A stretch of DNA of 64,000 bases from a virus: positions 1 to 64,000 of IMG/VR virus record IMGVR_UViG_3300031566_000020; one strand, written 5' to 3'. Of this stretch, positions 6,892 to 35,216 are shown one piece after another. The position numbers were made by a program, and so were the translations under genes. The notes under the pieces are model-generated. The model made no database searches and had not been told where the DNA came from. It worked only from the letters and a program-made list of their open reading frames with translations. Within the stretch, counting starts at the first letter, position 1. Each line of letters starts with the position of its first letter.

Positions 6892-7956
6892 ATGACTGAT
6901 AAAGAGATTAAACAGCTTGAGAATTTAATCACAGTTCCTTCTCCTTCTGGATTTGAAGGCTATATTGCCGATTACATAAAAGACCAAGTGTTAGAAGTTC
7001 TTAAAGAGGGCAATGTAGAAGTTGATTTCCAGAAGAATGTTATTGTGAAAATTGATGGTGTAGATACATCAAAAACCATCATGATTGATGCTCATTTAGA
7101 CCAAATAGGTTATGTTGTAACAAACATCAGCAAAGAGGGTTTATTAAGCATTGGTATGCTTGGAGGAAGTGATTCATCTATTATTAGTGCAAGGCATCTA
7201 AACATCATTACAGATGGTGGTATTATTAATGCTGTAGTAGATAGAACGCATTCTCATTTGGTTTATGATGAAGATGATGAAAATGTAGGAAATTTATCTG
7301 ATGCACAGATTGATATTGGTGTAAGAAGATTTGATGAAGTATCAAAGTATGTAAAGATTGGTGACCCGGTTGTATTTCATCCTCATTTCTATAAATTAAT
7401 GGAAGATTTTTATGCTGGATATGGCTTTGATGATAAAGCCGGATGTTGGGTTTTATTAAACACTATTAAGAAATTTGCAAAATCAAAACCTCCGATTAAC
7501 ATTGTTTTTGTTTTTAGTTCCCAAGAGGAAACAGGAACACGATTGCCAACTATCGTAAATCGCTTTAATCCATCAGCAATCATTTCAATTGATGTTACAT
7601 TTGGAACAGATTATGGCTTTGGTGATGTTCTTGATAGACAAGTTGGAACATGTGAACTTGGAAATGGCGGTGTTATTTATAGAGGACTTGGCTTAGATAA
7701 AGAGTTCTATCTTGCTTTAGAAAAAACAGCCATTACTAAAAAACTACCATTCCAAACTCAAGCAAATGCTATTTCAGGTGGATTTACTTCTTTGATGGTT
7801 TCATCAGAATTAAACGGAATAAAAGCAAGTGTTATAGGAGTTCCTTTAAGAAACATGCATACTCCTGTTGAAATTATTTGCCTAAAAGATTTAATGAATG
7901 TTTCTAAACTATTAACATCTTTTTTGAAGAATCCAAAAATTTCAGAACTTATTTAA
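6892..7956 (+). CDS. M42 family metallo-aminopeptidase
   Basis: 354 residues, full length for the M42 family (glutamyl aminopeptidase / TET / CelM type). All ligands of the two-metal site are visible: His68 and Asp70 in DAHLDQIG, Asp180/181 in FDDKAG, the catalytic pair Glu212-Glu213 in QEETGT, Asp234 in SIDVTFGTD and His323 in NMHTPVEI. Such enzymes trim amino acids from peptides in the cytoplasm and form dodecamers. It sits 3 bp after the previous gene, within the replication cluster, which is an unexpected position. Active-site completeness argues for a working enzyme. Confidence 0.9.
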   Translation: MTDKEIKQLENLITVPSPSGFEGYIADYIKDQVLEVLKEGNVEVDFQKNVIVKIDGVDTSKTIMIDAHLDQIGYVVTNISKEGLLSIGMLGGSDSSIISARHLNIITDGGIINAVVDRTHSHLVYDEDDENVGNLSDAQIDIGVRRFDEVSKYVKIGDPVVFHPHFYKLMEDFYAGYGFDDKAGCWVLLNTIKKFAKSKPPINIVFVFSSQEETGTRLPTIVNRFNPSAIISIDVTFGTDYGFGDVLDRQVGTCELGNGGVIYRGLGLDKEFYLALEKTAITKKLPFQTQANAISGGFTSLMVSSELNGIKASVIGVPLRNMHTPVEIICLKDLMNVSKLLTSFLKNPKISELI

Positions 7957-25566: not shown

Positions 25567-25817
25567 TGGAAAAATATTGTAAAAATTGTGGTGAAGAAGT
25601 CCAGCAAGAATTATATGAAACAGGTATTGAAGAATTTTGTCGCTGTCAATGTACTTTAGAACCTGATTTTAATCCAGACTTATGGACAAACAATCTATTG
25701 GAAAGAAAACGTAAGATAGCAAGGGATTTGAAAGACAGGATGAAAAAAGAATGGACAGGTCTGAATGGACAAGACTACCAAGAACAAACTCCATTAGAAA
25801 GTTTTGAAAATGAATAA
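25566..25817 (+). CDS. Zinc-ribbon protein, paralogue of the one at 20743
   Basis: 83 residues. Its N-terminal zinc ribbon (YCKNCGEEV ... CRCQC) is followed by TLEPDFNPDLWTNN, nearly the same as TLHPDFNPELW in the 52-residue protein at 20743, and a helical C-terminal extension absent from that paralogue. It is coupled to the SbcC C-half. Confidence 0.6.
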   Translation: MEKYCKNCGEEVQQELYETGIEEFCRCQCTLEPDFNPDLWTNNLLERKRKIARDLKDRMKKEWTGLNGQDYQEQTPLESFENE

Positions 25818-26625
25818 TCCAATTATAATTTGTGCTTCAGGCAATTCTGTGCCTTTTTTGAATAGCCAATATTATAGAACGCATTGCGGATTACCATCAA
25901 AACTTCAATACACAATACAGAATAATGTTTCTATTGGATTGAATTGGTTCTTTAAATACGGATGCCGGACAACTTTTACATCTTGGGTAGATTGGCAGTG
26001 GTATGTTTGGACAAAAGAACAAACACAATCTTTACCGCTTATGGTTGGAAATTATGACCAATCTTTAAAAAATCATAATGAAGATTTAACCAATAAGAAT
26101 ACGATTTTGTTGAAAAGTAGCAACACATATTATGGCAAAGAATCAATCGAAAAGGGAGTATACACAAAGCATTTGGTAGGGATTTGGGCTATGAGCCTTG
26201 CAGTTTCTTTGGGGTTTAAAGAGATATACCTTCTTGGCTATGATTGTTGCGAAGTAAACGGACAAACACATTTTTATCAAGGGGTTATTGATGTAAATCA
26301 ATCAGTTCCTTTGAAGTTAAGAGGAAAGGTTGTTGAAAACAGACCTATATTTAGAGGAGTAGGAAAGAAAGAAGATGGGAAATATAAAACCGGAACATAT
26401 AACCGGAAAGGTAAAGATATAAGCGATACATATTTTGATAAGTTCACAACAGAAAAGGATGTCAAAATTTATAATGTATCAGAAGAAAGTATCATAACAT
26501 CTTTTCCTAAAATTTCATATGAAGAATTATATGAAAGAGTTGGCGATATTAAAGTTGATAATGATGCAATTAGGGATAAAATAAAGGAAGCTTTACATGA
26601 AAGAGCTTGTGATTGTAACCGTTAG
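25810..26625 (+). CDS. DUF115-like putative glycosyltransferase or glycan-related protein
   Basis: 271 residues from the ATG at 25810, 8 bp inside the upstream gene. It has an N-terminal nucleotide-binding-like strand and turn (IIICASGNSVPFL), a YTIQNNVSIGLNWFFKYG segment, TSWVDWQWY, and EIYLLGYDCCE. These are features of the DUF115/MptE-like and sialyltransferase-like proteins often found in phage and bacterial surface-glycan loci. The exact activity is unknown. It marks the left border of the decoration cassette. It ends in TAG, with a small gene overlapping it. Confidence 0.6.
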   Translation: MNNPIIICASGNSVPFLNSQYYRTHCGLPSKLQYTIQNNVSIGLNWFFKYGCRTTFTSWVDWQWYVWTKEQTQSLPLMVGNYDQSLKNHNEDLTNKNTILLKSSNTYYGKESIEKGVYTKHLVGIWAMSLAVSLGFKEIYLLGYDCCEVNGQTHFYQGVIDVNQSVPLKLRGKVVENRPIFRGVGKKEDGKYKTGTYNRKGKDISDTYFDKFTTEKDVKIYNVSEESIITSFPKISYEELYERVGDIKVDNDAIRDKIKEALHERACDCNR

Positions 26626-26692
26626 TTTTGCGATATCAATTATATTAATTCCTGTCTATGTTTTATACAGGATATATAAAGGACTAAGATGA
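26597..26692 (+). CDS. Single-pass membrane peptide (31 aa)
   Basis: 31 residues, almost all membrane helix (VIVTVSFAISIILIPVYVLY). It overlaps the 3' end of the previous gene by 29 bp and the next start by ATGA. The overlap means the amber stop of the previous gene must be a true terminator if this peptide is made. Confidence 0.5.
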   Translation: MKELVIVTVSFAISIILIPVYVLYRIYKGLR

Positions 26693-26943
26693 GTTTAATA
26701 TCAATAATGGGATGGGTAGGCAATATATTTTTCATTCTAGGGGCAATTTTTCTAGCAATGAAATGGATATCCGGATGGCATTGTCAAATCTTGGGTAATA
26801 TTTGTTATGTTGTTTTCGCTGTTCTCATGGGGGTTGAAGGGGTGAGCCTTTGTGCTTTGTCTATTTTGTTAATAATTATAAATATATTTGGATGGAAAAA
26901 TTGGAAGGAGCAAAAAAATCAATGGATAACTATAAAAAATTAG
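26689..26943 (+). CDS. Small PnuC-like membrane protein
   Basis: 84 residues with three membrane segments and a repeated W/G/N pattern (MGWVGNIFFILGAIFLAMK, WHCQILGNICYVVFAVLMG, IINIFGWKNWKE). This pattern resembles half of a PnuC/SWEET-type triple-helix bundle and small phage membrane proteins of that kind. Transport of a small metabolite is possible if it dimerises. No ligand can be inferred. Confidence 0.55.
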   Translation: MSLISIMGWVGNIFFILGAIFLAMKWISGWHCQILGNICYVVFAVLMGVEGVSLCALSILLIIINIFGWKNWKEQKNQWITIKN

Positions 26944-27355: not shown

Positions 27356-27535
27356 ATGAATATACTTTTAAGAAAAACATTATTATATCGTGTAATTAAT
27401 TTAGTTGTTATAGGAATGATTGTGTTTCTTATAACAAAAAACGTAGAAGAAGCACTTAAATTGAGTCTTGTGGTTGAAGTAACAAAAACTGTACTCTATC
27501 TTGTATACGAATATTTTTGGGAGCTTTCTCACTAA
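27356..27535 (+). CDS. DUF2061 membrane protein
   Basis: 59 residues. The layout LLRKTLLYRVINLVVIGMIV ... FLITKNVEEALKLSLVVEV ... KTVLYLVYEYFWE matches the DUF2061 family of small two-helix membrane proteins. In bacteria this domain is often linked to sulfate-activation genes (adenylylsulfate kinase). Here its stop overlaps the start of a sulfotransferase gene (TAATG). That adjacency supports a link to sulfation rather than chance. Confidence 0.75.
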   Translation: MNILLRKTLLYRVINLVVIGMIVFLITKNVEEALKLSLVVEVTKTVLYLVYEYFWELSH

Positions 27536-28251
27536 TGGAACTTAAAAACTTTATAATTTTAGGCAATTCAAAATGCGGTACAACGGGGCTGTATGCAACC
27601 ATGAGCCAGCATCCTCAGATTGTTCCAGCAAGAACAAAGGAATTGTATTTTTTTGGTTCACCGAAATACACAAAGGGTGTTAATTGGTACAATAGCCAAC
27701 TAGGAAAGTGTGATGAAAATCAAATCACAGGAGAATCTACACCTCCGTATTTTTTCCGAAAAGCATCAGTTCTCCAAATTTATAAATATGATAAAGATTT
27801 AAAGTTTATTGTTCTATTAAGACATCCTGTGAAAAGAGTTATTTCTCATTATAACCATACGAGTGTACCTGGATATGCTTATCCGTTCTCAAAGTTTTTA
27901 GATAAAACATTAAAAAGGATATATATTGAAGCCCACCCATTTTTAATTTTATACCATGTCATTGGGAAAAGCTGTTACTATCCTATGATAAAATATTGGC
28001 TTTCTTATTTTCCAAAGAGCCAATTCCTGTTTGTTAAAAGCGAAGAGTATTTTACTCAGTCACAGAAGGTGTTAAACGAAATTTATAGGTTCTTAAATAT
28101 TAGCGAATATGATACAGAGGTAATCCACGCATTAAAGGGCAAATACAGAGCAACAGTGACCGACGAAGACATCAAGCGATTAGAAGAGTATTATAAACCT
28201 TACAACAAACTGTTACCAGCCTTAATTGGTGAAAAATTTACATGGGAGTAG
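27535..28251 (+). CDS. PAPS-dependent sulfotransferase 1
   Basis: 238 residues from the ATG at 27535. The 5'-phosphosulfate loop FIILGNSKCGTTGLY (6-20) and the 3'-phosphate motif VLLRHPVKRVISHYNH (about 95-110) define the PAPS-binding sulfotransferase fold, most like the carbohydrate (heparan/chondroitin N-/O-sulfotransferase) type. ESTPPYFF and a C-terminal FLNISEY region are also typical. It would transfer sulfate from PAPS to a sugar or other hydroxyl. No PAPS-synthesis gene is seen in the window, so the donor must come from the host. It ends with TAG at 28249-28251. Confidence 0.82.
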   Translation: MELKNFIILGNSKCGTTGLYATMSQHPQIVPARTKELYFFGSPKYTKGVNWYNSQLGKCDENQITGESTPPYFFRKASVLQIYKYDKDLKFIVLLRHPVKRVISHYNHTSVPGYAYPFSKFLDKTLKRIYIEAHPFLILYHVIGKSCYYPMIKYWLSYFPKSQFLFVKSEEYFTQSQKVLNEIYRFLNISEYDTEVIHALKGKYRATVTDEDIKRLEEYYKPYNKLLPALIGEKFTWE

Positions 28252-28256
28252 GATAG

Positions 28257-28868
28257 ATGAAAAACTATTTTTCTATAAGAAACGAAGAGCATATTAAGTT
28301 ACAGTTGGAAGGAATGAAACAGCTTATCAATTTCTTCAGAACAGAATGCGGTGTCTATGCTTATTTAACCTATGGTTCGTTATTAGGGGCTGTTAGAAAC
28401 CAAGATGTTATAGGTCATGATACTGATTATGATATTGCCTATATGTCTAAATTCTCTGAACCAAAAGATATTCAGGCTGAATGGAGAGAGATATGCTGTA
28501 AACTAATTGATAACAATATGTTAGGCAAAATTTGGACTAAGCAAGGCATCTTTATCCATCCAACAAAAGACCAATTAGGTGATTTTTCCGGACAGATGCA
28601 TGTGCAAACTCCAAATAGGGTTATTCATATTGATGTGTATACTTCCTTTTGTAAGAATGGAAAATACCATTTGAGTTTTGGAATTCATGGACACTTAAAG
28701 AGAAGTGATATTGTTCCTTTTGGCAAAGTAACATTAAGAGGTATTGACTTTCCAGCACCAAAAAGACCAGAAGCAATATTAAAATTTATGTATGGTAAGG
28801 ATTGGATGACCCCAAAAGAAGCATATAAATATCAAGGAAAACGAAAGAAACTTTGGGAGTACAAATGA
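28257..28868 (+). CDS. LicD-family phosphotransferase
   Basis: 203 residues. The LicD/fukutin nucleotidyltransferase-fold motif YGSLLGAVRNQDVIGHDTDYDI holds the metal-binding Asp pair. FSGQMHVQTPNRVIHIDVYTSF and RPEAILKFMYGKDWMTPKEA complete the family layout. LicD proteins move phosphocholine or related phospho-groups from CDP-activated donors onto surface sugars. The next gene encodes a cytidylyltransferase that could make such a donor. Confidence 0.8.
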   Translation: MKNYFSIRNEEHIKLQLEGMKQLINFFRTECGVYAYLTYGSLLGAVRNQDVIGHDTDYDIAYMSKFSEPKDIQAEWREICCKLIDNNMLGKIWTKQGIFIHPTKDQLGDFSGQMHVQTPNRVIHIDVYTSFCKNGKYHLSFGIHGHLKRSDIVPFGKVTLRGIDFPAPKRPEAILKFMYGKDWMTPKEAYKYQGKRKKLWEYK

Positions 28869-29272
28869 AAAAAGTAATTACTTTCATGGTTGGAGATTTG
28901 TTTCACATAGGACATCTTAATATGCTTCAGAACGCTAAGAAGCTAGGAGATTATCTTATTGTTGGGATTCCTACATCATGGACTATAAAAGAACATATTA
29001 AAGGGAAAACTCCGATTTTTTCAGCAGAGGAAAGATTACGGATTGTTCAGGCTTTAGAGATTGTAGATTTTGCATTTATTTATACAGACAATGATAGTTT
29101 AGATGAATCAATAAGATTATTAAAACCGGATATTATTTGCAGAGGAGATGACAACAAAAACTTTTTTGGTAAAAAAGCGTCAGAAGAAATAGGATGTGAG
29201 ATTGTATATTTTCCATATACACAAGGAATTTCATCAACAGAAATTAGGAGAAGATTATGCGAAGAAAATTAA
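28865..29272 (+). CDS. TagD-like cytidylyltransferase
   Basis: 135 residues, the usual length of glycerol-3-phosphate and related cytidylyltransferases. HIGH-type motif FHIGHLNMLQNAK, loop KGKTPIFSAEERLRIVQAL, RGDDNKNF, and the terminal ISSTEIRRRL (ISTTxIxxR) are all present. It forms CDP-activated alcohols (CDP-glycerol, CDP-choline or CDP-ethanolamine types). The gene overlaps the LicD gene by 4 bp (ATG within its stop region), indicating that the product feeds the LicD reaction. Confidence 0.85.
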   Translation: MKKVITFMVGDLFHIGHLNMLQNAKKLGDYLIVGIPTSWTIKEHIKGKTPIFSAEERLRIVQALEIVDFAFIYTDNDSLDESIRLLKPDIICRGDDNKNFFGKKASEEIGCEIVYFPYTQGISSTEIRRRLCEEN

Positions 29273-29448
29273 CAGATGAAGAAGTTTACATGATAGTTCG
29301 TGCAGAAGAAGAATGTGGTATGAACACTTTACTTCAAGAACTGTTTACATCAGAAAATCCTGTAGTTTATTGTGAGATTGATGAGAAGGGGTGTTTCGGA
29401 GAGTATACTGTTGAAGAAAAACATAAGAAAGTTAGGAGTAAAAAATGA
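29257..29448 (+). CDS. Hypothetical protein (63 aa)
   Basis: 63 residues, acidic, with LTDEEVYMIVRAEEECGMN. It overlaps both neighbours (16 bp upstream, ATGA downstream). No family is recognised. Confidence 0.5.
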   Translation: MRRKLTDEEVYMIVRAEEECGMNTLLQELFTSENPVVYCEIDEKGCFGEYTVEEKHKKVRSKK

Positions 29449-30017
29449 GGGTAATATTTGGTGGAAATTCTGATATAGGAAAAGCGATTGAAGGGGAACA
29501 TATATCTAGAAAAGATTGTGATGTAACAAAATTTAATGATGTTCTGCATATTATACAAACTTATAGACCAAATGAGATTGTGGATTGTGCTGGGGTTATT
29601 TATCCATCATCAATTTACAGTTCAGATGTTTTAAGTTGGGAGCATGAGTTGAAGGTAAATTTAATAGGTTCTTACTATATTGCAAAGCTAGGTACACTTA
29701 ATATAAACGCAAAGATTGTTTTCATTGGGTCTACAAGCGGATTAAGAGGTAGGGGTGATTGGAGTGGGTATTGTGCATCAAAGGCTGGATTAATATCTCT
29801 TGTTCAATCAATGGCTGAAGAAGGATATAATGCATGGGTGGTAAATCCATCAAGAACAGCAACCAAAATGAGAAAAAAGCTTTTTCCGGATGAAGACCAA
29901 AACACTTTATTGCAACCTTCAGATATAGCAAAAGTTGTGCAAGGATGTTTTGACGGTGTTTATAAATCCGGTAGTAGTATTACAGTAAAAAAAGATAAAA
30001 TAATTGTAGAGGAGTAA
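29445..30017 (+). CDS. Short-chain dehydrogenase/reductase
   Basis: 190 residues, short for the family. NAD(P)-binding GGNSDIGKAI (6-15), the NAG-like DCAGVIYP, VNLIGSYYIAK, and catalytic Ser plus YxxxK in GSTSG ... YCASKAGLI are present. C-terminal VNPSRTATKMR matches the PG-motif position. It would reduce or epimerise a small substrate, plausibly a nucleotide sugar or alditol phosphate for the neighbouring transferases. Confidence 0.82.
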   Translation: MRVIFGGNSDIGKAIEGEHISRKDCDVTKFNDVLHIIQTYRPNEIVDCAGVIYPSSIYSSDVLSWEHELKVNLIGSYYIAKLGTLNINAKIVFIGSTSGLRGRGDWSGYCASKAGLISLVQSMAEEGYNAWVVNPSRTATKMRKKLFPDEDQNTLLQPSDIAKVVQGCFDGVYKSGSSITVKKDKIIVEE

Positions 30018-30019
30018 TT

Positions 30020-30421
30020 ATGAAACTAAAATTTAAAACAGATGGTATTTTTACAGACATCACCGAAAAATTAAAGCCAACAATTAAAGATGGTATTTTA
30101 GTGGTATCAACCCAACATACAACATGTATGTTAGCTATTCTTGAAAATGAATCATTGTTAAAGAAAGATATGGAAGGATTTTTAGAAAGAATTGCTCCGG
30201 AAAAAGGTGTTTATGCTCATGATTATATTGAGAAAAGAGATGTTCCTCCGGATGAAAGAATTAACGGTTTTTCTCATATCAGAGCAATGATGTTTCAACC
30301 ATCATTAACAATTCCTGTAGAAGATGGCAAACTGGTACTTGGAAAATGGCAAACAGTATTCTTAATTGAATTAGACCCAAAAAGGGAACGAACTCTACAT
30401 GTTGTCGAAATCGAAAAATAA
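30020..30421 (+). CDS. YjbQ/UPF0047 family protein
   Basis: 133 residues, full length. Diagnostic residues are VVSTQHTTCMLAILENE, YAHDYIEKR, ERINGFSHIRAMMFQPS, and LVLGKWQTVFLIELDPKRER with the conserved His and Glu. Bacterial homologues have thiamine-phosphate synthase side activity, but their true role is unsettled. It is 2 bp after the dehydrogenase gene. A role in this cassette is not obvious. Confidence 0.85.
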   Translation: MKLKFKTDGIFTDITEKLKPTIKDGILVVSTQHTTCMLAILENESLLKKDMEGFLERIAPEKGVYAHDYIEKRDVPPDERINGFSHIRAMMFQPSLTIPVEDGKLVLGKWQTVFLIELDPKRERTLHVVEIEK

Positions 30422-30430
30422 GGATTTATT

Positions 30431-33127
30431 ATGACTGACCAAATGCATCTTTTAAAAAAAGTTACTGATTTGCTTAAAGATAATAATATCGAATATTTCC
30501 TTGACTGTGGAACTCTACTTGGTGCAGTTAGAGAAGGAGATTTTCTTGCTCATGATGCCAATGATATTGATATTGGATTGAAGCAAGAGGACTATTGGAA
30601 AGTAAGAACCATAATAGACCGACATTTTGAGTTAGAATATAAAAATTATTGGAGAGCTGAAATTGCAGTTACTCTTGATAATAAATGCCATCTAGATATG
30701 TTTTTCTATACAGATGAAGGGAAATATCTAGCAACTCAAGCATGTTTAGGTAACCCAATGCAAAGAGGGATTAATATAGAATCTGAAACACGAAGATTAA
30801 AAGAGAATATTTTTCCTTTGAAAACAATCAAAATGAAAAGAAAAACTTTCTTTGTTCCAAATAATCCGGAAGCTGTATTAGAAGAACAATATGGGAAAGA
30901 ATGGAGAACTCCTGTTACAAAATGGTATCATGAATATGGACAGGGCTTAAATCCGGAGCATAGAACCATAGGAATATTAATCACAGCGTTTTTAAGAGAT
31001 GACAAGCTTTTTAAAGAAGTAAATTCGATATTACAGTATTGCGATAAAGATGACCTATTCAGAAAATGGATTCGTATTTATATTGCTGACCAAGGAAATC
31101 CAGAATGGTCAGAAGAAAAACAAAGATTCTATGACCAATTAAGAGCAAACGGACATAAGATATTTAAAACACCTTACAATTCCGGGCTATCATACAACAG
31201 GAACTTTTTGGTTGAGCAAAGCAACGAACCATACCTGATGATTATAGATGATGATTTTGAGTTTACCGAAAAAACGGATTTAACTCAAATGATTGAAATT
31301 TTAAATCATAGAGAGAAAAACGGAATTGTTGGTGGAGATATTGATGAAAGACCTCCATATCATGCAAACTTAATGTTTGAAGTTAAGGGTGGAATTAATC
31401 ATCTTTATAGAATACAAAAAATGAATCAAGAACAGAATGTTAAGAATTACAAATACTATTATACAGACATTGTGCTTAATTTCTTTTTAGCCAAACGAAA
31501 AGTCTTAGAAGATGTTAAATTAGACAACAATTTAAAATTGGTTGAACATTCTGACCACATGCTCCGTATTAAAAGAGATTCAGATTGGAAAGTGTGCTAT
31601 TGTCCAGATGTTACATGTAGACATCAAAGAGGTAGAGATAGTGATGAGTATCGTAATTTCAGGCATAATCATAACTATGTGCAAATGTTTTTAGATAAAT
31701 GGAATATTAAAGAAGAAAGAAACGCACACAAAGTATATGTAACTCCAATAAAAGAAATTAAGTGTATTGAAGAAAAACCTGAACATAAAGAAAAAATAAA
31801 AGTTGTTCAGATTGCAAGGATTCCATGTGCCAATAGTGCATATGAAGTGTCAAACCTATTAAATAAGTATTCAGATAAATATGAATCACGTTATATTTTA
31901 GGAGCAGAATATAGCCGAAACAATCAAACTATTCCTTTCAGACAATTTCCTTATGATATCTTATGGAAAGAAAATCAAGAGGAAGCTATTAGACTTATTA
32001 AAGAAGCAGATATTATTCATATTCACCACGATTCATGGGAAGACATAGAACAATATTTTGAAGGAAAGTGTGTTGTAAGTACGTTGTATAATTTAACACA
32101 GTCTTTACAGTATAAAGATAATAAATTTAATAATGATTATCTTAATAAATTAAAATCTTTTGGACATATAACAGTTGCAGACCAGCCACTTCAAAAAATA
32201 ATGTTCAGTGATATTTCAACTGACACTGTTCCATTAGTAAAAATGATGTTTGGGTTAAGAGTTTATGACAACGGAAATAAAAATGTTGTTATAGGCTTTG
32301 CTCCAACAAATAAAAGCCCTATAGGTATAGGAAGTAAAAGATTTGAAGAAGTTATGACTGTGATAAACGGTCTTAAAGAAAAATATGACTTTGAATTTAA
32401 ATTAATCGAAGGACTTCCTTATGAAGAAAATTTGGTAGAAAAAGGCAAATGTGACATCATTATTGATGATGTTGATGATAGGTATGAAAAGGCTCACAAC
32501 ACAACTATTGAAGCTGGAATGCTCAATGCAGTTCCATTGACTAATTATAGTGGAGATTGGTATCCAGCACATAAGACATCAATCATTAACTTACAAGAAA
32601 CTTTAGAGTTATATTTAGAGAACCCGGCATTGATAGAAGATTATCGTAAACGGATTTTGGAAAAATGGAGAGCCGAAGTGTATACTCCTCAAAATTTGTT
32701 AAAAGAATTTGAAAGAGTTTATGATAGTTTAACAATAAAGAAATCTATAGAAGAAATAGCAATACCAGATACAAAAGATTTATCAATTAAAGAAGAATTT
32801 ATTTTACTAGATTCAATTTTTGAACAAAATAAAATTGATTATTGTTTAATAAAAACAAGTTGTTTAGATGCAGTAAGGTTTGGAGAACCTCGTTTAACAC
32901 CAGATACAATACATATAGCGGTAAAAGATATTGAAAAAGCGTCAGCGATTTATAAAGAATTAAATTTAAAATTAAAGGTTAAGTTTTCTACTAATATGCC
33001 ACCAAAAATGAAAGAGATTGGATTTTTTGGAAGGGCTAGAAAGATTCCATTTCCTGTAATTCCATATCTTCAAAATTTTTATGGATATGGAACAAGGTGG
33101 AGAAAGTATGGTATAACAGAACAATGA
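30431..33127 (+). CDS. Multidomain LicD-glycosyltransferase protein (898 aa)
   Basis: 898 residues. An N-terminal LicD domain (about 1-165) has LDCGTLLGAVREGDFLAHD. A GT2-type glycosyltransferase domain (about 180-430) carries ILITAFLRDDKLF, YNSGLSYNRNFLV and the DxD-like LMIIDDDFEF. A third domain (about 450-750) starts VVQIARIPCANSAYEVSNLL and contains VIGFAPTNKSPIGIGSKRF and TIEAGMLNAVP, the form of a GT-B (GT4-like) glycosyltransferase. A C-terminal 110-residue LicD-like remnant follows. Such a chain would build and phosphorylate a glycan on one scaffold. It is coupled to the next sulfotransferase by an ATGA overlap. Confidence 0.8.
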   Translation: MTDQMHLLKKVTDLLKDNNIEYFLDCGTLLGAVREGDFLAHDANDIDIGLKQEDYWKVRTIIDRHFELEYKNYWRAEIAVTLDNKCHLDMFFYTDEGKYLATQACLGNPMQRGINIESETRRLKENIFPLKTIKMKRKTFFVPNNPEAVLEEQYGKEWRTPVTKWYHEYGQGLNPEHRTIGILITAFLRDDKLFKEVNSILQYCDKDDLFRKWIRIYIADQGNPEWSEEKQRFYDQLRANGHKIFKTPYNSGLSYNRNFLVEQSNEPYLMIIDDDFEFTEKTDLTQMIEILNHREKNGIVGGDIDERPPYHANLMFEVKGGINHLYRIQKMNQEQNVKNYKYYYTDIVLNFFLAKRKVLEDVKLDNNLKLVEHSDHMLRIKRDSDWKVCYCPDVTCRHQRGRDSDEYRNFRHNHNYVQMFLDKWNIKEERNAHKVYVTPIKEIKCIEEKPEHKEKIKVVQIARIPCANSAYEVSNLLNKYSDKYESRYILGAEYSRNNQTIPFRQFPYDILWKENQEEAIRLIKEADIIHIHHDSWEDIEQYFEGKCVVSTLYNLTQSLQYKDNKFNNDYLNKLKSFGHITVADQPLQKIMFSDISTDTVPLVKMMFGLRVYDNGNKNVVIGFAPTNKSPIGIGSKRFEEVMTVINGLKEKYDFEFKLIEGLPYEENLVEKGKCDIIIDDVDDRYEKAHNTTIEAGMLNAVPLTNYSGDWYPAHKTSIINLQETLELYLENPALIEDYRKRILEKWRAEVYTPQNLLKEFERVYDSLTIKKSIEEIAIPDTKDLSIKEEFILLDSIFEQNKIDYCLIKTSCLDAVRFGEPRLTPDTIHIAVKDIEKASAIYKELNLKLKVKFSTNMPPKMKEIGFFGRARKIPFPVIPYLQNFYGYGTRWRKYGITEQ

Positions 33128-33708
33128 TAAATATACTTATAACAGGACATCCTAGAAGTGGTACACATTATATTGCTAATCTTTTAAATGCTTTAGGACA
33201 TTCGTGTACCTACGAAAAAAGAAATCCTAATGGTTTTACTGCTTCTTGGAAACATATTAAGAGTGGAGTTTTTGAACCGCCATGCAGAGAAACAGAAATC
33301 GTTTGTGATTTTGATAAAATAATTCATCAAGTCAGACATCCTTTAAAGGTTATTGCATCTTCTACTACACTTTGGACAATGAGCATGATTTATATGGCTC
33401 AATTTATAGAACTTCCAGACCCAATTGTTAATAGAGAAAACACAATAAAAAATTGTATGGTTACTTGGTTAAAATGGAATGAGTTTATTGAAAAGAAAGC
33501 AGTATGGCGATATAGATTAGAAGATTTAAAATATGTAAATAAAGAATGGTGCGAACAATTGGAAATCCCTTATTGTGAGATACCAAATAAAAGTCCTGTA
33601 AATACTAGAAAACATATAGAATTAAATTGGTCAGATTTATATAAAATCAATACTGAATTAACAACAGAAATAAGGTCAAAGGCTTTTGAATATGGATACT
33701 CAACCTAA
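33124..33708 (+). CDS. Sulfotransferase-like protein 2
   Basis: 194 residues. P-loop-like 5'-PSB ILITGHPRSGTHYIANLL at the N-terminus and HQVRHPLKVIASST for the 3'-phosphate site identify a second sulfotransferase-fold protein, diverged from the one at 27535. The C-terminal half is less typical. It overlaps the 898-residue protein gene by 4 bp, implying that the two act together. Confidence 0.72.
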   Translation: MINILITGHPRSGTHYIANLLNALGHSCTYEKRNPNGFTASWKHIKSGVFEPPCRETEIVCDFDKIIHQVRHPLKVIASSTTLWTMSMIYMAQFIELPDPIVNRENTIKNCMVTWLKWNEFIEKKAVWRYRLEDLKYVNKEWCEQLEIPYCEIPNKSPVNTRKHIELNWSDLYKINTELTTEIRSKAFEYGYST

Positions 33709-34522
33709 AATCGCAATTTGTATTCCTACAATTCTAAAAGATAATGGCTTAATGCAATCACTTAATTCGATACTTGATGTTTATCAAGACAATTGGGTAG
33801 TGCTTATTGGTGAACAGAATAATATCGAAGATTATAGTGAAGAAAAAACTATTTTCTATCATACAGCTTGTGCAAAGGCACATGATGATTTACATCAGGA
33901 TAGATTTAAAGTGGTTAAACTTCCTTATGATTGTGGTTTATCTTATGCAAGAAATAAGCTTGTTGAGAAAGCAATGGAAATAGGAGCAGATTATTGTGTT
34001 ATTTCAGCAGATAGTATTATGTTCACAGAATCAATGAAAAAATTAAATGAGTTATTTATTTGCTTTAAGGAGTATGATGTTGTTGGGTTAGAATTAAAAG
34101 GACGTATTTCTTGGGAAGCCTATTTAGATATACAAGAAGCATTTGTATTTGATTTTATTGAAAGGCATCCGGTTAATGCTCTTTTAGATAGATATACAGA
34201 CAAGCAAATAACGGTTCATACTTGTGATGTAATACGGAATTTCTTTATGGCAAAAACTCCGGTTTTAGCTTCTGTTCTATGGGATGATAATGTGAAGATG
34301 GGGGAGCATGGTGATTGGTTTTGGAGATTAAAACAAGAAGGGTTTAAGGTAGGATTTACAGATTATTGTGAAGGTCAGTATCGTTCAAATATAGAAACAG
34401 AATATAAACAGTTACGTCAGAAGAACTTAGAGATTGGTAAGGATTATATGAAAAAGAAATACAATCTCAAAAAATGGCATGAATATATTCATTTAGAAAG
34501 AGTTAGGAAACCCAATGTTTAA
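33692..34522 (+). CDS. GT2-family glycosyltransferase
   Basis: 276 residues from the ATG at 33692, 17 bp inside the previous gene. It resembles the GT2 section of the 898-residue protein: IAICIPTILKDNGL, PYDCGLSYARNKLVEKA, then DYCVISADSIMF, NFFMAKTPVL and GEHGDWFWRLKQEGF. The usual DxD is replaced by SADS at the corresponding place, so metal binding may differ. It would add a sugar to the cassette's glycan. Confidence 0.8.
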   Translation: MDTQPKIAICIPTILKDNGLMQSLNSILDVYQDNWVVLIGEQNNIEDYSEEKTIFYHTACAKAHDDLHQDRFKVVKLPYDCGLSYARNKLVEKAMEIGADYCVISADSIMFTESMKKLNELFICFKEYDVVGLELKGRISWEAYLDIQEAFVFDFIERHPVNALLDRYTDKQITVHTCDVIRNFFMAKTPVLASVLWDDNVKMGEHGDWFWRLKQEGFKVGFTDYCEGQYRSNIETEYKQLRQKNLEIGKDYMKKKYNLKKWHEYIHLERVRKPNV

Positions 34523-35216
34523 TATAATAAAAACAATATTTGATACAACAATTGCTATTTTTTTCTCTATTGAAACATACCAGTTTTTATTTTGTTTACT
34601 AATCACAGTTTCCATACACGAATTGGCTCATATGCTAGTGGCTCTAAAATGCGGTATGGGGGTCAAAGCATTTTCAATAGGGTTCGGTAAACCTTATTTA
34701 CATAAAACCTTCAAGGGGATAGATTTTAGGCTTTCTCCGTTGCCTTTTGGGGGGTATTGTGACATAAAGGGCATGGAATCCAAGGAAGAACCTGATGATT
34801 TTTTGGCACATCCATATAGGAACAAATTTGCTGTTTTAATTGCCGGAGTAACTGTTAATATCCTGTTTGCCTGTATTTGCTACATTATAAACTTTGGTTC
34901 TATTCGGCTTGGGTTTGCAATAGACATGGAGTTTTTAAAGGCATTGTTTACAAAGGATTATGAAATGGTAGCCTTTTTGGTTAGAAACATTCCTATGAAT
35001 TGGCTTATTTTACAGCTATCCTTGCTTAATATGTTCTGTGGATTAACCAATTTAATTCCTTTTCCGGCTCTTGATGGAGGGCATTTATGGGAAGTATTAT
35101 TAGAGAAACCTTTAGGAGATAAATTTATTCCTGTTTACAGAGCTTTAAATTACTTTGGATTTATATTTTTGATTATTTTACAATTATATTTGTTATGGTG
35201 GGTTTACTTTAAATAA
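34515..35216 (+). CDS. M50 (site-2 protease type) membrane metalloprotease
   Basis: 233 residues with about five hydrophobic segments. The zinc motif HELAH (His35, Glu36, His39) lies in the first long helix, GFGKPYLH and PLPFGGY follow, and the third ligand is in NLIPFPALDGGHLWE. It lacks an obvious PDZ domain. Members cut membrane proteins inside the bilayer, for example anti-sigma factors or signal peptides. It overlaps the GT2 gene by 8 bp and closes the cassette. Confidence 0.85.
   Translation: MFNIIKTIFDTTIAIFFSIETYQFLFCLLITVSIHELAHMLVALKCGMGVKAFSIGFGKPYLHKTFKGIDFRLSPLPFGGYCDIKGMESKEEPDDFLAHPYRNKFAVLIAGVTVNILFACICYIINFGSIRLGFAIDMEFLKALFTKDYEMVAFLVRNIPMNWLILQLSLLNMFCGLTNLIPFPALDGGHLWEVLLEKPLGDKFIPVYRALNYFGFIFLIILQLYLLWWVYFK

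Follow-up and report, generated by a model that had tools for sequence, protein, structure and literature searches.

The viral record IMGVR_UViG_3300031566_000020 (68,226 bp, its end falling inside a terminase as read by eye) carries, within the first 64,000 nucleotides analyzed here as the window, a plus-strand gene cassette that probably builds a charged glycan decoration and attaches it by way of a CDP-alditol, the likeliest acceptor being a virion protein or its glycan. Its three-gene core, composed of a TagD/PCYT2-type cytidylyltransferase (CTT), a short-chain dehydrogenase (SDR) and a member of the YjbQ/UPF0047 family, probably produces a sugar alcohol, activated with cytidine, that is to be attached to a glycan. 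The original prediction had envisaged a sugar chain bearing CDP-derived phospho-groups and sulfate; the families and motifs support this general reading, which is here made more specific. The genes it named are all in place by open reading frame and Pfam checks, two domain calls falling below the Pfam cut-off, yet its list had overlooked the YjbQ gene and a 63-residue reading frame. Gene content, conserved linkage and the catalytic motifs, intact in most of the genes, are direct observations.

The CTT gene (28865-29272, alternative start 28853; CTP_transf_like, PF01467, 1.4e-18) overlaps the stop of the preceding LicD gene as ATGA, and its product retains the nucleotide-binding motifs FHIGH and GISST. 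The arginine of the TagD motif (RTEGIST) is replaced by tyrosine (YTQGISS), so that the substrate may be other than glycerol- or ribitol-phosphate. The second core gene encodes a candidate alditol reductase (29445-30017; adh_short, PF00106, 4.4e-14) with the motifs GGNSDIG and YxxSK, and an SDR is adjacent to the cytidylyltransferase in the window as well as in the phages L003 and L046. The third, YjbQ (30020-30421; PF01894, 1.1e-31; TIGR00149 above cut-off), forms one clade with the other phage YjbQs, four in all (support 95/97). The SDR and CTT families are broad, a point against the CDP-alditol reading.

The order CTT-SDR-YjbQ, then LicD, recurs in an otherwise unrelated siphovirus (L003 and L004, near-identical and counted once), with the core at 61-73% amino-acid identity (72-73% for CTT and 61% for the SDR), and the core plus LicD form the only convincing homology between the window record and L003. 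Between these core genes dN is 0.20-0.31 (NG86) and dS about 2.5-2.9, hence saturated; this low dN against a saturated dS indicates purifying selection on the core. The linkage expected of the block across phages holds for this collinear stretch, whereas the full block of nine to eleven genes was met nowhere else: nucleotide and protein searches found none among annotated phages, and viral scans with the 898-residue LicD protein, the first sulfotransferase (ST1) and a portal-like protein as queries gave no match. Two further phage contigs emerged from a YjbQ motif scan. L046 has, in a row behind tail-like genes, two TagF-like transferases, an IspD-type cytidylyltransferase, an SDR (47%) and YjbQ (50%), while in L045 YjbQ lies beside a NeuA-type cytidylyltransferase, with an aldolase next and an SDR nearby. 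Since YjbQ and the SDR recur beside TagD-, IspD- and NeuA-type enzymes, one pathway step appears to be served by three cytidylyltransferase families. The CTT and LicD genes flank an Fe-ADH-like gene in L023 and a double DUF2061 in L027/L041. The broader CTT pattern extends to 22 viral contigs, most of them with neither LicD nor YjbQ, and CTT alone is therefore no marker of the cassette. Among cellular sequences, CTT adjoins LicD in polysaccharide loci; seven YjbQ genes have no CTT or SDR relatives nearby (two of them with only 1 kb of flank), and two scans of cellular genome contigs, one with the SDR alignment and one with the motif FMVGD..FHxGH, returned zero relatives. The phage YjbQ/UPF0047 clade could be a dedicated enzyme for the synthesis of a CTP-activated alditol or related sugar, acting together with an SDR and with whichever of the three unrelated types of cytidylyltransferase is present, a proposal offered tentatively and short of being called probable.

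Candidates for alditol-phosphate transfer stand alongside the core, as two FKRP-like LicD proteins in the window and TagF-like enzymes in L046. The shorter LicD protein (28257-28868; PF04991, 1.3e-7) matches human FKRP by profile (4e-6) and bears the motif GSLLGAVR...DTDYDI. The 898-residue protein (30431-33127; LicD, PF04991, 5.4e-8; Glycos_transf_2, PF00535, 4e-9) comprises a LicD domain (about 1-165), a glycosyltransferase domain (about 180-440) whose PDB match is B4GALNT1 (5.5e-9), a further region and a degenerate LicD-like tail, its C-terminal half having no family match. Both N-terminal LicD domains preserve G[ST]LLGAxR and the Asp-rich motif, which are lost in the C-terminal copy. A paralogue of the glycosyltransferase domain (GT2b, 33686-34522; 30% identity, 4e-24) is likewise B4GALNT-like, although it falls below the Pfam cut-off. 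Of the two sulfotransferases, ST1 (27535-28251, listed from TTG 27517; Sulfotransfer_1, PF00685, 3.4e-17) resembles heparan-sulfate 3-O-sulfotransferases, with HS3ST3A1 as its best PDB match (5e-23), and displays clear 5'-PSB and 3'-PB motifs for PAPS (SKCGTT, KELYFF and RHPVKRVISHY). The probable second one, ST2 (33124-33708, listed from GTG 33097), has both PAPS-binding motifs (HPRSGT and RHPLKVIASS) although its Pfam score (PF13469, 24.0 bits) stays under the threshold of 27. AlphaFold models of the 898-residue protein and ST2 reached pLDDT values of 31 and 36, too low to be informative.

The cassette opens with a 59-residue membrane protein (DUF2061, 27356-27535; PF09834, 1.3e-10, above cut-off), and the 63-residue reading frame (29257-29448), which has a good Shine-Dalgarno sequence and no family match, overlaps the SDR gene by 4 nt. 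Genes are separated by gaps of 1-9 nt or overlap slightly (spacing range -17 to +9 nt), with junctions of the ATGA and TAATG types. It had been claimed that the overlaps show expression as one unit; the close spacing is present and suggests, short of proof, a single transcript, because a promoter and terminator scan did no better than shuffles. Upstream, an MptE/DUF115-like gene (25804-26625, plus strand; PF01973, 6e-6, below cut-off; best phage family phrog_4603, alpha-2,3-sialyltransferase, 7e-12) is a possible partner, absent from the related cassettes. Downstream lies an M50 (site-2-type) membrane protease (34515-35216; Peptidase_M50, PF02163, 1.1e-35; motifs HELAH and NLIPFPALDGGH), which had been counted as a member; the gene is present and adjoins the cassette, but none was recognized in any related cassette; it need not belong, and its membership is doubtful.

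As regards substrates, order of steps and acceptor, we infer the following scheme. The SDR would reduce a ketose or ketose phosphate, CTT would activate the polyol phosphate with CTP to a CDP-alditol (activation may instead precede reduction), and YjbQ would supply or condition the substrate for this synthesis. The two LicD proteins may then transfer alditol phosphate as a phosphodiester onto a glycan extended by the B4GALNT-like glycosyltransferases, to which ST1 and ST2 would add sulfate. PAPS is assumed to come from the host, as is the primer glycan; an APS kinase appears in the record only below cut-off. Formation of CDP-alditols by a cytidylyltransferase and a reductase is established (PMC10918830), as is the use of CDP-ribitol by the LicD proteins FKTN and FKRP (PMC4873967). 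The Haemophilus Bcs1/TarIJ synthesis of CDP-ribitol together with FKTN/FKRP offers the same logic, a cytidylyltransferase and a reductase feeding a LicD transferase, and among annotated phages the window SDR finds its best match in phage YerA41, in the SDR portion of a protein that fuses IspD and SDR; in contrast, the window has a TagD-type rather than IspD-type cytidylyltransferase, an additional YjbQ, and is phage-encoded. CTP activation and SDR reduction to an open-chain CDP-alditol, the scheme proposed here, also produce the CDP-6-D-glucitol of the Campylobacter jejuni capsule (PMC10918830), although with enzymes of families PF01128 and PF01370 and no YjbQ.

A protein of the phage virion, or the glycan on it, is the likeliest acceptor, with a host-surface polymer as the main alternative. 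Virion decoration is favored because glycan genes follow the major head protein gene, directly or after one small gene, in four other phage lineages (L003, L032, L040/L041 and Salinibacter phages), and is weakened because the window cassette ends a plus-strand DNA-metabolism block, outside the structural operon. Of the cassette genes, the Salinibacter phages, which can be cultivated, have the glycosyltransferase only. This position fits remodeling of the host capsule, LPS or teichoic acid such that other phages cannot adsorb, a reading with a sizeable if lesser chance of being correct. The small DUF2061 membrane protein would suit it, as would the integrase gene (119-898), which suggests that the phage can be temperate, and LicD has been proposed to act so in gut phages: some Flandersviridae similarly encode a CDP-forming enzyme with LicD, the licD and ispD pair being read by the authors as host interaction (PMC8008677), although the pair sits in a replication module and SDR, YjbQ and sulfotransferase are not reported there. 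Against it, the record contains no flippase (PF01943) or GtrA (PF04138), while controls were detected, and in L003, L032, L041 and L055 the relatives are situated within the head or tail region. For virion decoration there is a precedent in mycobacteriophages, whose glycosyltransferases modify capsid and tail proteins (Freeman 2023, as cited in PMC12619734), although no phospho-polyol or sulfate pathway is known there.

Rather unlikely is that the TagD/PCYT2-like enzyme activates no alditol but forms, for example, a CDP-phosphocholine- or phosphoethanolamine-like or heptose-type conjugate, in which case the SDR and YjbQ would act on a different sugar. PCYT2 is the best PDB match of CTT (4e-21, with TagD at 1e-16), CTT is RfaE-II-like in NCBIfam and PHROGs, and Mf1-type LicD enzymes use CDP-choline (PMC11982090); however, no choline or ethanolamine kinase or uptake gene was seen among the cassette neighbors, and an alditol is suggested both by the SDR as a conserved partner and by the TagF-like transferases of L046. 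Decoration of phage DNA by the sugars is highly improbable, for although phage glycosyltransferases are generally known in DNA hypermodification (also cited in PMC12619734) and the cassette adjoins DNA-metabolism genes, no modified-nucleotide synthesis gene was noticed next to it, and relatives of LicD, sulfotransferases and B4GALNT act on glycans. Equally improbable is a random cargo of captured host polysaccharide genes without function for the phage: the full block has no second occurrence in the collections searched, but the low dN with saturated dS, the intact motifs and the recurrence with replaced parts in other phages speak against it.

Three further systems were considered and rejected, namely Gtr-type O-antigen (serotype) conversion by GtrA and GtrB (no PF04138 match in the record), Wzx/Wzy polymer export (no PF01943 flippase in the record) and anti-phage defense (no relevant PADLOC model match).

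If the proposal for the phage YjbQ clade is true, phages would be seen to build sulfated, phospho-polyol glycans on their own particles, and the charged virion glycans so predicted might have effects on adsorption, on the masking of receptors and on how stable the particle is. The cassette would also help account for LicD and sulfotransferase genes in phages, the latter having been described as unexplained (PMC10580990). The YjbQ family would gain a testable role in CTP-activated alditol chemistry; its name-giving function is only a secondary thiamine-phosphate-synthase activity, and a 2021 review lists its function as unknown. Direct assay of YjbQ is possible because it is linked to a cytidylyltransferase and an SDR in the window and in three further phage cassettes. 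The family is represented in 10 of the 14 control genomes and by several solved structures.

The run of genes at 27356-35216, originally predicted to be a sulfation and phospho-glycan decoration cassette, is present as described, and domain searches of the ORFs found there recovered DUF2061, a PAPS sulfotransferase (27535-28251), LicD (28257-28868), a TagD/PCYT2-like cytidylyltransferase (CTT, 28865-29272), a short-chain dehydrogenase (SDR, 29445-30017), an 898-aa LicD-glycosyltransferase fusion (30431-33127) and an M50 protease (34515-35216). The proposed second sulfotransferase (33124-33708) and last glycosyltransferase (33686-34522) fall below the Pfam cut-off, yet the former has PAPS-binding motifs and the latter is backed by paralogy. 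A UPF0047/YjbQ gene (30020-30421) and a 63-aa ORF (29257-29448) had been overlooked. Neighbouring genes overlap at ATGA or TAATG junctions or over longer stretches reaching 17 nt, or else lie 1-9 nt apart. The closest solved structures are heparan sulfate 3-O-sulfotransferases for the first sulfotransferase, fukutin-related protein FKRP for LicD, ethanolamine-phosphate (PCYT2) and glycerol-3-phosphate (TagD) cytidylyltransferases for CTT, B4GALNT1 for the glycosyltransferase domain of the fusion, and UPF0047 entries without known function for YjbQ; such matches suggest family likeness and are not proof of identical substrates.

A viral scan with the window CTT retrieved two contigs with near-identical cassettes, IMGVR_UViG_3300025669_002143 (L003) and 3300005915_000260 (L004). 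Behind the major capsid gene, these encode a GT9-like protein, CTT, SDR, YjbQ, LicD, a 100-aa ORF, a sulfotransferase-like protein, a second CTT, a UDP-glucose-dehydrogenase-like protein and a GT4-type glycosyltransferase. The sulfotransferase-like protein exhibits P-loop and RDPR motifs by eye and has no sulfotransferase match in Pfam. CTT, SDR and YjbQ are 73, 61 and 65% identical to their window counterparts, and the translated comparison gave no convincing homology beyond these three and LicD. With dN of 0.20-0.31 and saturated dS, all three genes look to be under purifying selection.

Scanning viral contigs for the YjbQ motif PDExxNG[FHY]SH yielded four, namely L003, L004, L046 and L045. 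L046 (105,910 bp) has, behind tail-like genes named by eye, a pair of CDP-glycerol-phosphotransferase-like genes (part of one checked against Pfam, the other named by eye), an IspD-type cytidylyltransferase, and an SDR and YjbQ 47% and 50% identical to those of the window. In L045 (79,778 bp), the cytidylyltransferase accompanying YjbQ is NeuA-type, an HMGL-like aldolase is also present, and the SDR is more distant. The four phage YjbQs share PPDERING and form one clade (support 95/97), separate from eight others; no CTT or SDR relatives occur near the gene at seven cellular loci, two of which could be viewed with just 1 kb of flanking sequence. That one YjbQ clade stands beside three different cytidylyltransferase families is the strongest indication of a role for YjbQ in a CTP-activated pathway, although three or four independent cases make this suggestive, not proven. 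On a Thiodictyon plasmid (L047, 4896-6631), YjbQ overlaps a RuBisCO-like gene and comes after idi, a possible further clue to its chemistry.

The compound that the core activates is probably an alditol. Among annotated phages, the best relative of the SDR comes from Yersinia phage YerA41, where it forms the SDR half of an IspD-SDR fusion; we take the domain order of this fusion to be that of the bifunctional Haemophilus CDP-ribitol synthase. L046 has TagF-like transferases where the window has LicD. In L023, a 117-kb phage contig, CTT, an iron-alcohol-dehydrogenase-like protein (767-1555) and LicD are consecutive, and the second possibly replaces the SDR. Bacterial CDP-alditols are made by a cytidylyltransferase and a reductase (PMC10918830), and CDP-ribitol is the donor for ribitol phosphate transfer by the LicD-domain proteins FKTN and FKRP (PMC4873967).

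Precedents include LicD and IspD pairs in Flandersviridae phages (PMC8008677), sulfotransferases with an unexplained role in OM43 phages (PMC10580990) and, as cited in PMC12619734, virion glycosylation in mycobacteriophages. Since the literature searched held no report tying YjbQ to cytidylyltransferases, the cassette is filed as a new version of the known phage glycan-modification cassettes.

The window belongs to a 68,226-bp IMG/VR virus record. Genes for integrase, exonuclease, Prim-Pol, a RecA-like protein and family B polymerase are on the plus strand, tail and fibre genes are on the minus strand from 36 kb on, and portal-like and terminase-like proteins (named by eye) are encoded close to the end of the record. 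An M42 glutamyl aminopeptidase gene (6892-7956; 4.6e-58), uncommon in phages, lies amid the replication genes, and an 84-aa protein that matches part of PF04973 (nicotinamide mononucleotide transporters; 2e-6) is encoded a short way upstream of the cassette (26689-26943). Of the 57 ORFs that start with ATG and encode 120 aa or more, 35 have a Shine-Dalgarno-like motif in front (background 7%), so a host within the Bacteroidota is unlikely.

Glycan genes follow the major head protein, either immediately or with a single small gene in between, in L003, L032, the L027 record (L040/L041) and Salinibacter phages, and come after tail-like genes in L055, which favours late expression and virion decoration. 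The window cassette differs in position, being near the 3' end of a plus-strand block head-on to the fibre genes. Neither a flippase nor GtrA was found in the record, and no APS kinase exceeded the cut-off in this genome. The virion has roughly an even chance of being the target; the host surface is a tentative, less probable candidate. A B4GALNT-like glycosyltransferase occurs in 184 Salinibacter phage records, in the one inspected (L035, 8833-9951) close behind the major capsid gene. The stretch from L040 7666 to L041 8310, flanked by the major head protein and a 1195-aa protein, holds a long series of sugar genes, comprising kinase-like, cupin, epimerase, UDP-GlcNAc 2-epimerase-like, GT9, CTT, DUF2061, LicD and methyltransferase genes, several named by eye.
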